Origin: Faecalibacterium prausnitzii | GTDB lineage: Bacteria; Bacillota; Clostridia; Oscillospirales; Ruminococcaceae | Direction of reading: 5' to 3' | Assembly (NCBI RefSeq): GCF_003287405.1 | Contig: NZ_PRLD01000005.1 | Coordinates: 1-64,000 of the forward strand | Length of the DNA: 64,000 nucleotides | Part shown: positions 4,433 to 58,173 of the stretch, one piece after another | Numbering within the stretch: the first letter of the stretch is position 1 | Layout: every line of letters starts with the position of its first letter | Program-made: the position numbers and the translations under genes | The notes under the pieces: generated by a model | Seen by the model: the letters and a program-made list of their open reading frames with translations, nothing else | The model's database searches: none | What the model was told of the DNA's origin: nothing

Positions 4433-4548
4433 CGACCCCTCCCGTGAAAATAGCGTTTGGAGCGGTCCGCAGACCGCGACAAACGCGAAATATAAAATAA
4501 TTATTCCGCTGATGATGCGCAGAGCGAAGCGGAGCGCATTCCCAATCG
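4433..4548 (-). repeat. structured 3'-UTR element, copy A
   Basis: Copy A of the six-copy element, given in the sense of atpC. ATGCGC (from 4534-4539) pairs with its complement at 4515-4520. TCCGCT (from 4528-4533) pairs with 4505-4510, interleaved with the first. After an AT-rich linker comes a hairpin (4453-4486) with 7-bp and 6-bp stems separated by a tandem G-A/A-G mismatch and capped by C(TGCG)G. The tail is ATTTTCACGGG. It lies 62 bp beyond the atpC stop, behind a separate terminator. Confidence 0.75.
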
Positions 4549-4561
4549 TCCATCACAAAAC

Positions 4562-4600
4562 AAAAGGCACCCACAGCCAGTCGGCTGTGGGTGCCTTTTT
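4562..4600 (-). terminator. atp operon terminator
   Basis: A 17-bp perfect stem (4562-4578 with 4583-4599, loop AGTC) ends in a minus-strand T-run. It lies 11 bp past the atpC stop. Confidence 0.9.
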
Positions 4601-4610
4601 GCATACAGGG

Positions 4611-5009
4611 TTAACGGATAGAGGTACGCACCAGCGCACGCTTCAGGCGCGCCTGTGCCAGCTCGTACTCACGGTCGTTCAGGTTCTTGCGGGCAAGGAT
4701 CTCCTCGGCGCGCTTCTTGGAAGCTTCCGCACGCGCCTGATCGATGTCCTCCGCCCATTCCCAAGTGGTAGCCACCAGACGCACGTCCCCGTCCAGCACG
4801 CTGAGCAGGCCGCCCATGCAGGCTGCACGGCGGCGCTGACCGTCGGCATCTACAATGTGCGCCTCGCCCATGCCCAATGCCGTGCAGTAATCGCCGTGCT
4901 TTGCCAGAATGGCGATATCGCCGTCAATGGCGCGGCAGACGATGCGCTCGGCCTGACCTTCAAAGGCGCAGCCGTCCGGCGTGACCACCGTCAGATGAAA
5001 GGTCGTCAT
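4611..5009 (-). CDS. atpC: F1Fo ATP synthase epsilon subunit
   Basis: Central-stalk subunit of F1 that couples rotation and inhibits ATP hydrolysis. Its 132 residues have the N-terminal beta-sandwich (FHLTVVTPDGCAFEGQAE) and the C-terminal helical hairpin (about 85-132, DQARAEASKKRAEEIL). It is the last gene of the operon, 3 bp after atpD. Confidence 0.95.
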   Translation of the reverse strand: MTTFHLTVVTPDGCAFEGQAERIVCRAIDGDIAILAKHGDYCTALGMGEAHIVDADGQRRRAACMGGLLSVLDGDVRLVATTWEWAEDIDQARAEASKKRAEEILARKNLNDREYELAQARLKRALVRTSIR

Positions 5010-5012
5010 GGC

Positions 5013-6407
5013 TTACCCCTTCTTCGCTTTTGCGAACACGTCGTCGATGGTGCCCGCGAACAGGAATGCGCTCTCGGGCAGCTCGTCGCACTCGCCGTTC
5101 AGGATCATCTTGAAGCCCCGCAGGGTCTCCTTCAGCGGCACATACTGACCGGGCATACCGGTGAACTGCTCTGCCACATGGAAGCTCTGGCTCAGGAAGC
5201 GCTGTACCTTGCGGGCGCGGCTGACGGTACGCTTGTCCTCCTCGCTCAGCTCGTCCATGCCCATGATGGCGATGATGTCCTGCAATTCCTTGTAGCGCTG
5301 CAGCACCTTCTGGACGGCACGGGCGATCTCGTAGTGCTCCTGACCCACGACCTCCGGGCTGAGGATGCGGCTGGTGGAGTCCAGCGGGTCCACAGCGGGG
5401 TAGATGCCCTGCGATGCAATGTCACGGCTCAGCACCGTGGTGGCATCCAGATGGGTAAAGGTGGTGGCAGGGGCGGGGTCGGTCAGGTCATCGGCGGGAA
5501 CGTAGACGGCCTGCACCGAGGTGATGGAGCCCTTGCGGGTGGAGGTGATGCGCTCCTGCAGGGCGCCCATCTCGGTGGCCAGCGTGGGCTGGTAACCAAC
5601 GGCAGAGGGCATACGGCCCAGCAGTGCGGACACCTCGGAACCGGCCTGCGTGAAGCGGAAGATGTTATCAATGAACAGCAGCACATCCTGATTTTTCACA
5701 TCGCGGAAGTACTCCGCCATGGTCAGGCCGGACAGTGCCACGCGCATACGGGCTCCCGGGGGCTCGTTCATCTGGCCGTAGACCAGTGCGGTCTTGTTGA
5801 TAACGCCGCTCTCGGTCATTTCGCCGTACAGGTCGTTGCCCTCGCGGGTGCGCTCGCCGACGCCGGTAAATACCGAGTAACCGTTGTGCTCGGTGGCGAT
5901 GTTATAGATCAGTTCCTGAATCAGAACGGTCTTGCCGACACCGGCGCCGCCGAACAGGCCAATCTTGCCGCCCTTGGCGTAGGGGCAGATCAGGTCAACG
6001 ACCTTGATGCCGGTCTCCAGGATCTCGGTGGTGGACTGCTGCTCCTCGTAGCTGGGAGCGGGACGGTGGATGGGCCAGTAGGCATCCGGGGTGGGGGCGG
6101 GCTTGTTATCCACCGGCTCGCCCAGCAGGTTGAACACGCGCCCCAGACACTGGTCGCCTACGGGCACCTTGATGGACTCGCCGGTGTCCACGGCATCTGT
6201 GCCGCGCACCAGACCATCGGTGCTGCTCATGGCAATGCAGCGCGCCACATTGTCGCCGGTCAGCTGAGCGACCTCCACCACCAGCTTCTGGCCGTGGTTA
6301 TCGATCTCAATGGCGTTGAGCAGCTCCGGCAGCTCGCCATCCTTGAACTGGATGTCCAGCACCGGGCCAATGACCTGGATCACCTTGCCGATATGTTTTT
6401 CGGACAT
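5013..6407 (-). CDS. atpD: F1Fo ATP synthase beta subunit
   Basis: Catalytic F1 subunit, 464 residues. The Walker A loop is GGAGVGKTV, the catalytic glutamate segment is [11 protein letters not shown], Walker B is [11 protein letters not shown], and the DELSEED-loop equivalent appears as DELSEEDK. Length is normal. The start at 6407 is followed by [15 protein letters not shown], the standard N-terminal barrel. It follows atpG with a 25-bp gap. Confidence 0.98.
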
Positions 6408-56955: not shown

Positions 56956-57003
56956 GCTGCCGCCAAAAGCAGCCCCTGAGTTTCAGAAAAGGAAGCGTCA
57001 CAG

Positions 57004-57906
57004 ATGTTTGATATCATTACCGACAGCGCCTGCGACCTGACGCTGGACACCGCCAAGCAGCTTGGCATCGAGGTCGTGCCCTTTTATGTATCGCTGGACG
57101 GCGAGCATTACCACAAGGAAGGGCTGGAGATCCCCGTGCGGGACTTCTATCAGTTCATGGTAGATAACCCGGCGGCCTATCCCAAGACCAGTCTGGCCTC
57201 CATCGAGGACTTTGAAAAGACCTTCCGCGCACACGCCGAGGCGGGTCGGGATGTACTGTGTCTGGTGTTCACCGGCAAAATGAGCGGCTGCGTGGGCAGC
57301 GCCCGCAACGCCCGGGATCTGGTGCTGGAGGACTACCCCGATGCCCGCATCGAGGTCATCGACTCTGCCGCCGCCACGGTGACCGAATCCACCATGGTGG
57401 AAAATGCCGTGGCCATGCGGGACGCAGGCTGCACCTTGGACGAGACTGTGACTTGGCTGGAAGCCGAAAAATCCACCAACCAGATCTTCTTCACCGTGGG
57501 TGATCTGGACTACCTCATCAAGGGCGGGCGCATCGGCAAGGTGACCGGCCGCGCCGCCAATATGCTGGGGCTGAAGCCCATGATCCTGTTCAAGGAGGGC
57601 GAGATCTTCTCCGGCGGCGTGGCCCGCGGCCGGCAGAAGAGCTTTGAAAAGGCACTGGAACAGCTGATGAACTATCTGGATGCCCACGGCGGCACCCCGG
57701 ACGACTACCGCATTACGGTGGGCTACGGTTACGATGCCGACGAAGGCAAGCGTCTGTGGATGCAGACCCGTGCCGCCCTGCGCGCCAAGTACCCCGGCGC
57801 ACAGTGTGAGGTAGGGCTGTTGCAGATCGGCTGCACCATTGCGGTGCACACCGGCCCCTATGCACTGGGCATGGGCGTCATGCGCCGCTGGAAAAAGCAA
57901 AATTGA
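57004..57906 (+). CDS. DegV-family fatty-acid-binding protein
   Basis: 300 residues. DITDSACDLT (N terminus), FTGKMSGCVGSARNAR and the fatty-acid-binding C-terminal lobe with YLIKGGRIGKVTGRAANMLGLKP fit the DegV/FakB fold. FakB proteins present fatty acids to FakA kinase for phospholipid synthesis. No fakA is nearby. It starts 48 bp after purA behind AAGGAAGC and probably shares its transcript. Confidence 0.92.
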   Translation: MFDIITDSACDLTLDTAKQLGIEVVPFYVSLDGEHYHKEGLEIPVRDFYQFMVDNPAAYPKTSLASIEDFEKTFRAHAEAGRDVLCLVFTGKMSGCVGSARNARDLVLEDYPDARIEVIDSAAATVTESTMVENAVAMRDAGCTLDETVTWLEAEKSTNQIFFTVGDLDYLIKGGRIGKVTGRAANMLGLKPMILFKEGEIFSGGVARGRQKSFEKALEQLMNYLDAHGGTPDDYRITVGYGYDADEGKRLWMQTRAALRAKYPGAQCEVGLLQIGCTIAVHTGPYALGMGVMRRWKKQN

Positions 57907-57930
57907 TAAGCAGGAATGCCCGCCGGAGGA

Positions 57931-58039
57931 CGATTTAAAATGCCCTCCGCGTTGCTCTGGGCATGATTCAAGGAACTCTATTTTTATATTTGAAAATCGG
58001 GAAGATCTGCGGATCTTCCCGATTTTCTTTTCACGGGAG
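57931..58039 (+). repeat. structured 3'-UTR element, copy F
   Basis: In degV sense. ATGCCC (57940-57945) pairs with GGGCAT (57959-57964). The constant arm is TCCGCG (57946-57951), with a degraded partner CAAGGA (57969-57974). The 16-bp perfect hairpin (57992-58007 with 58012-58027) has a C(TGCG)G loop. The tail is TTTTCACGGGA. It abuts copy C tail to tail. Confidence 0.78.
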
Positions 58040-58057
58040 AGATGCAGCTTATCTTTA

Positions 58058-58173
58058 CGACCCTTCTCGTGAAAACGAAATACAGCCAAGCCCGCAGGCT
58101 TGGCTGTATTTCAAAATAAAAATATTTTTCCGCTGAAAATATCCAGAGCGTAAGCGGAGGATATTTAAAATCG
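58058..58173 (-). repeat. structured 3'-UTR element, copy C
   Basis: In asnA sense. ATATCC (from 58159-58164) pairs with 58139-58144, interleaved with TCCGCT (from 58153-58158) pairing 58129-58134. A 16-bp perfect hairpin (58077-58092 with 58097-58112) has a C(TGCG)G loop. The tail is TTTTCACGAGAAGGGTCG. It starts 7 bp after the asnA stop. Confidence 0.8.

Follow-up and report, generated by a model that had tools for sequence, protein, structure and literature searches.

The DNA analysed here, 64,000 nucleotides of Faecalibacterium prausnitzii (contig NZ_PRLD01000005.1, positions 1 to 64,000; hereafter the window), carries six copies of a hairpin-bearing element near the ends of genes, and these copies are members of a large dispersed repeat family rather than a one-sided RNA of 3′ untranslated regions (3′ UTRs). 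We favor, with a probability of roughly 70 per cent, the interpretation that the family is a lineage-specific, high-copy intergenic mosaic repeat organized like bacterial interspersed mosaic elements (BIMEs) or miniature inverted-repeat transposable elements (MITEs), whose hairpin and T-run act as a putative terminator at stop codons. In gene sense a full copy, about 120 bp long, reads GACGATTTNRAAT, arm a (ATGNNC), TCCGC-N-GCTCT, arm a′ (GNNCAT) and NTTCAGCGGA, followed by about 18 AU-rich bases, a 15–16-bp hairpin with a TGCG cap, and ATTTTCACGGGAGGGGTCGTAAAGGAAAACGGCA. In outline, it consists of a head, a short a stem with a conserved CCGC-N-GCTCT loop (the a module), an AU linker, a 16-bp TGCG-capped hairpin and a TTTTCACGGG tail. 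Some longer copies continue with a GC-rich hairpin, beyond which other common repeats follow.

A covariance model made from 55 copies (R1) recovers the element at each of the six places where it had been predicted. All six copies are real, but the a module is whole in only four of them. The full copies, with head, a module, AU linker, hairpin and tail, lie at 4431–4550 (minus strand), where tail-side similarity to other copies extends to about 4380; at 50359–50477 (minus strand) after dus, with a TGAG cap; at 57929–58047 (plus strand) after degV, where AAGGAA replaces AGCGGA and the tail is short; and at 58056–58175 (minus strand) after asnA, tail-to-tail with the degV copy. The two partial copies, both on the minus strand, have kept the hairpin and tail and lost the a stem (48903–48976; R1 match 48894–49006) or consist of hairpin and tail only (18956–19006; R1 match 18956–19054). 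Two new, weak matches, also on the minus strand, bring the R1 total in the window to eight: one at 59302–59418 (42.1 bits) that was absent from the original prediction, and one at 46711–46802 (32.4 bits) that may be an ordinary terminator.

The copy number is high and confined to one lineage. In the window's own genome, 46 matches came from a DNA search and at least 116 from the R1 search; across 31 Faecalibacterium genomes, eight are rich in matches (at least 116 each in G000, G005 and G038, 115 in G037, 114 in G028, 108 in G027, 95 in G036 and 79 in G009), six have one to four, and 17 have none. Within 800 kb of G005 alone, 51 R1 matches exceed 80 bits. The eight rich genomes form a single clade adjoining G006 in a tree of asnA and dus from 29 of the 31 genomes (G002 and G031 left out), with support of 0.76 for joining the two halves of the clade. 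In a family-wide sample of 148 genomes, taken with stricter filters and 24 candidates per genome, just three gave a match apart from the window's own genome, single and weak in each case. Similarly, among the matches listed from a pattern scan of genome contigs, 76 of 80 stretches were Faecalibacterium, and none of the four others contained an R1 match. Weak matches outside the rich clade (15 loci, read by eye) include one degraded pair in G006, one full relic in G022, element-like hairpins without an a module (L080, L368, L369, L067, L068, L370 and L081) and what look like ordinary terminators (L069, L070, L087 and L089). Two IMG/VR contigs hold full copies as tail-to-tail pairs (L186, 11003–11312; L187, 12374–12654), which may be prophage or host-flank sequence. 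Units, which occur singly or as tail-to-tail inverted pairs, appear to have multiplied within one Faecalibacterium clade.

The original prediction, which described all six copies as following a stop in one orientation relative to the gene, argued from the double-sided changes and from a UNCG-type loop in the gene-sense strand only that selection acts on the sense transcript, as a structured 3′-UTR RNA family (terminator, 3′-end stabilizer or switch). We now regard such an RNA as unlikely, and the absence of any match from more than half of the genus genomes already speaks against it, as does gene context. We examined 96 full copies in stretches of G005 (800 kb) and G037 (1.2 Mb), with genes called by a codon-score script that places starts approximately; 39 lie between convergent genes, where either orientation counts as following a stop, 49 between tandem genes and eight between divergent genes. 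Since the tandem-gene copies run both ways (21 sense, 28 antisense), the constant orientation in the window is not general, and random orientation here is an outcome that the prediction itself had named as refuting. The best 65 of 90 matches in the G005 stretch agree: they are spread over 54 intergenic regions, with 26 convergent, 35 tandem (17 sense, 18 antisense) and four divergent copies, and occupy 20/51 convergent, 30/218 tandem and 4/69 divergent regions (totals count regions of at least 100 bp; the occupied set includes two shorter convergent ones). One rule does apply: the head is turned towards whichever gene is nearer in 58 of the 72 unpaired copies (p = 1.6e-7), the other 24 of the 96 being in pairs. 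Where the head faces a stop, the distance is short (median 13.5 nt, n = 60), and the placement of 44/60 within 30 nt is what a 3′-UTR RNA would also lead one to expect; where it faces a start the median is 91.5 nt (n = 36).

The constraint on pairing is real in both a–a′ and the terminal hairpin, and this counts in favor of an RNA. The four a/a′ pairs of the window copies are as first described, and across 55 copies double-sided changes occur at 5/6 pairs of helix a (98.2 per cent of cells paired) and at 15/16 pairs of the hairpin (96.1 per cent). More widely, the a arms, of 12 types, are fully complementary in 229 of 254 full copies. The covariation score of the whole structure, helix b included, is 0.627 against a shuffle mean of 0.156, a value that none of 500 shuffles reached. 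An outer helix (ACGA/TCGT) taken from the minimum-energy fold of the asnA copy was rejected, its covariation score being reached by 485 of 500 shuffles. In the asnA copy the a stem lies at 58139–58164 on the minus strand (a, 58159–58164; a′, 58139–58144) around a TCCGCTTACGCTCT loop.

Helix b, which had been proposed to interleave with a, does not share this support. Only 84.1 per cent of its cells are paired, the double-sided ones (four) all fall at the end pair (1/6 pairs), the change from TCCGC to GCCGC in 10/55 copies is uncompensated on the other side, and TAAGGA-like forms break the inner pairs. An H-type pseudoknot would have covariation in both interleaved helices; it is seen in a but not in b, and save for the end pair we have dropped the interleaved helix.

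Two further features, the mismatches and the cap, fail to point to selection on one RNA strand. Selection on a sense RNA should tolerate G–U over A–C, and mismatches in 134 distinct hairpins (12 G–T, 10 A–C) and 35 distinct a-arm pairs (11 G–T, nine A–C), albeit small numbers, contain no G–T excess and so give the RNA no support. In a UNCG tetraloop, the cap type first suggested, the second loop base is free. The cap is TGCG in five of the six window copies (TGAG in the copy at 50361–50474), as had been noted, but over 232 caps it is TGCG in 216, TACG once and TTCG or TCCG never, and because the second base is G in 230 it is not a free-N UNCG loop. At gathering scores the only Rfam match in the window is 5S rRNA, whose gene stands at the window start (7–123), with none to the element, whereas a known family there would have refuted the prediction; a search of 57900–58200 gave eight matches with E-values up to 1, all well under gathering scores. 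Nothing pointing to ligand sensing turned up, although no direct test was aimed at it, and the element is probably not a gene-specific RNA switch.

If RNA-level selection is not the main source of the double-sided changes, comparison of orthologous sites suggests what is. From 206 query–target comparisons, 36 copy pairs at 32 query sites were obtained, not all of them independent (123 comparisons lacked a flank match, often because the comparison covered no more than stretches of G005 and G037, 44 lacked a full target copy, and in three the flank match was too distant). Flanks at these sites are about 93–99 per cent identical between strains, yet the hairpins are either nearly the same (0–2 of 34 positions different, 21 pairs) or wholly different (10–23, 15 pairs at 13 query sites), with none intermediate, whereas among all copies 13.5 per cent of pairs differ by 3–9. 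This pattern points to a shared repertoire exchanged between copies. The flank is unambiguous in 14 of the 15 changed pairs, and the changed hairpins recur elsewhere in the compared sequence in 12/15 cases for the target and 13/15 for the query. The a arms were the same in 23 pairs, changed equally on both sides in seven and unequally in six. Hairpin and a module can be replaced separately: neither changed in 16 pairs, the hairpin only in seven, a only in five and both in eight (Fisher p = 0.09 for association).

Double-sided changes at comparable sites are therefore mostly the replacement of whole cassettes, by types found elsewhere, which is difficult to reconcile with selection on a 3′-UTR RNA; small compensated single-pair changes do occur, at site 385535 and when the asnA copy of G037 is set beside that of G005. 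The swapping could be the work of ectopic recombination or of gene conversion among copies. A more adventurous proposal, to which we attach little credence, is that a dedicated system swaps hairpin cassettes among hundreds of fixed sites, so that neighboring strains re-equip their gene ends with different terminators; such a system might perhaps, like the recombinases of integrons or of the IS200 type, work on single-stranded DNA in its folded form. In integron attC sites and in the ends of IS200/IS605 it is the fold that is conserved rather than the sequence, and the likeness to our element goes no further than that resemblance. More generally, striking double-sided changes between repeat copies can arise by exchange of whole palindromes and not by RNA selection, and covariation-based searches for structured RNAs call for corresponding care within repeats.

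The arrangement of close copies is likewise that of a repeat. Opposite-strand copies less than 300 bp apart are tail-to-tail with heads outward in all 12 pairs, with spans of 230–309 bp, so the paired form has terminal inverted repeats; the same arrangement is seen between tandem genes, and some pairs enclose a central GC-rich hairpin. It also speaks against RNA-level selection as the main reason for the double-sided changes. It is possible, though we hold the idea tentatively, that the full form is a MITE, a tail-to-tail inverted repeat of about 230–310 bp of which the single copies are half-deleted remnants, with mobility supplied in trans by a transposase that has since been lost or goes unrecognized; as a mobile mechanism this overlaps with the mosaic repeat that we prefer. 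The uniform pairs, the central hairpin, the burst within one clade and the presence or absence of the element at orthologous sites would all fit. In the last comparison 18 of 55 G005 clusters had no ortholog among the compared sequences, and site 15 is flanked by a 10-base direct repeat, so that deletion fits as well as insertion. Most copies, however, are single, no consistent target-site duplication was found at the 12 pairs, and an autonomous partner was not identified, the genes in four longer tail-to-tail spans not having been searched for one. As a candidate transposase between outward heads, one gene was translated, that lying between copies 193359 and 195511; it is no obvious transposase and, by eye and without a family search, looks like a membrane transporter.

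A related and rather doubtful alternative is a repeat of the repetitive extragenic palindrome (REP) type, mobilized through single-stranded hairpins by a Y1 enzyme of the IS200 or REP-associated tyrosine transposase (RAYT) kind. The element is hairpin-rich, paired, intergenic and convergent-favoring, like the REPs described in PMC3733652, and Y1_Tnp matches, several of them partial, occur in 6/8 rich against 5/23 poor genomes (Fisher p = 0.012, uncorrected for kinship). But this association is weak, neither G005 nor G036, both rich, has a match to PF01797, and only one of six scanned Y1 loci has an element, so mobilization by RAYT or Y1 was rejected. At that locus (L054, in G037) a Y1 gene of 168 aa (1474–1980) stands directly before the head of an element (2100–2219), which seems a mere neighbor of the gene and not its end; the gene is presumably IS200-like, judging by its appearance. 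In G000 the match to the Y1 family is interrupted by an in-frame TAG. Because neither a consistent target-site duplication nor a cognate transposase was found, mobility is deduced from the distribution of the repeat.

Where the head of the mosaic repeat abuts a stop codon, its hairpin and the following T-run would together provide the gene with its intrinsic terminator, and an adopted terminator is the likeliest function of such copies as judged from sequence. A stable hairpin, a T-run and a nearby stop are all present, and the 9 nt after the hairpin contain on average 4.4 Ts on the sense side and 2.5 on the antisense side (96 copies), a bias that would equally suit a 3′-UTR RNA. The clearest case is asnA, where a 16-bp hairpin with a TGCG cap (58077–58112, minus strand) is followed by GTTTT, and the fold of the copy is far better than shuffles (z = −6.1), which again a 3′-UTR RNA would predict. 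Among the 27 genomes in which the asnA 3′ end was readable (G036 and G009 excluded, a wrong ORF having been caught there), a full copy begins 4 nt past the stop in G000; in G037, G028 and G005 the a stem is deleted but the hairpin is almost unchanged; and the other 23 lack the element, most having by eye an ordinary hairpin and T-run.

In G005 a full copy abuts the stop of 24 genes, 18 of which had a comparable gene end in G037; there a script assigned an element to six ends, a hairpin only to three, another terminator to five and none to four. Some ends were misclassified on inspection: the 'hairpin only' rows include two full elements (41861 and 413687), and the 'other terminator' rows include three hairpins of the element type (501710, 507957 and 561365). 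At the G037 counterparts of 195511, 501710, 507957 and 561365 the hairpin and T-run have outlived the a stem. Because several sites have kept the hairpin but not the a module, the module may serve the repeat, in spread or exchange, rather than the gene. The family would offer a case, in a gut commensal, of a repeat lodging at the ends of genes and seemingly taking over their termination signals.

Several observations weigh against a mobile repeat with adopted terminators, beyond the missing duplication, transposase and PF01797 match given above. Alleles brought in from other strains could look like the product of exchange between copies. For the 4431–4550 copy the advantage of the fold over shuffles is modest (z = −2.3, with 3/200 equally good), and between this copy and the atpC stop lies a separate terminator-like hairpin with T-runs on both sides (4562–4599, no strand assigned); the copy is thus not the first such hairpin of atpC, and redundancy occurs too. 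The simple scan sees no terminator at eight classified ends, 4/18 in G037 and 4/6 in G011 (the other two G011 ends have one; one end unaligned in G011 was omitted, as were those lacking an ortholog), so an ordinary terminator has not been replaced in every case. Finally, the 28 antisense copies between tandem genes do not agree with a terminator of the upstream gene. The terminator part of the original prediction survives for stop-abutting copies, asnA above all, and leaves the antisense copies unexplained.

Two other features of the window adjoin the copies. Another repeat, with CTCAGTC...GACAGCTCCC hairpins, lies near them at 4336–4380 and 18899–18945, and also on the tail side of several other element copies. 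The dus open reading frame (409 aa) probably begins too early: its first 70–80 residues (51418–51697) have matches at many further sites across the genome, as repeat DNA would, and the codon-score script places the start at 51418.

Among known systems, REPs and BIMEs are closest, being high-copy intergenic hairpins in inverted pairs near gene ends, in convergent and unidirectional contexts (as described in PMC3733652). The Faecalibacterium repeat is likewise high-copy, intergenic, hairpin-bearing, inverted-paired and near gene ends; it exceeds about 100 dispersed copies per genome in G000, G005 and G038, and favors convergent and unidirectional contexts over divergent ones (39 and 49 against 8 of 96). 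In contrast to REP units of 20–40 bp (PMC3733652), its unit is about 120 bp, close pairs are only tail-to-tail and unrelated hairpin cassettes are exchanged at one site, and the PF01797 search of G005 and G036 gave no dedicated RAYT. The head is often GACG (CGTC on the other strand), but CGTC REPs have a stem of 8–9 bp and a loop of 4–5 nt (same source), unlike the 6-bp nearby stem with its 13–14-nt loop and the main hairpin of 15–16 bp. The main text of PMC3733652 has no mention of Faecalibacterium, Firmicutes or Clostridia. Titles found among the Faecalibacterium literature, mostly outside subscription journals, describe no such repeat. By description, not sequence, the family also resembles bcr1–bcr18 of the Bacillus cereus group, intergenic repeats limited to one group of Firmicutes, of which bcr1–3 are MITE-like, bcr10 and bcr18 have conserved secondary structure, and about half of the copies lie inside transcripts; hairpin-cassette exchange is not mentioned for them in the portion of the source consulted (PMC3446304). 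Like intrinsic (Rho-independent) terminators, the element places a hairpin and then a T-run just past the stop codon, but it is borne by a dispersed repeat with a conserved cap, tail and upstream module, and has antisense copies too. What appears to set it apart among dispersed intergenic repeats is the exchange of whole hairpin cassettes.

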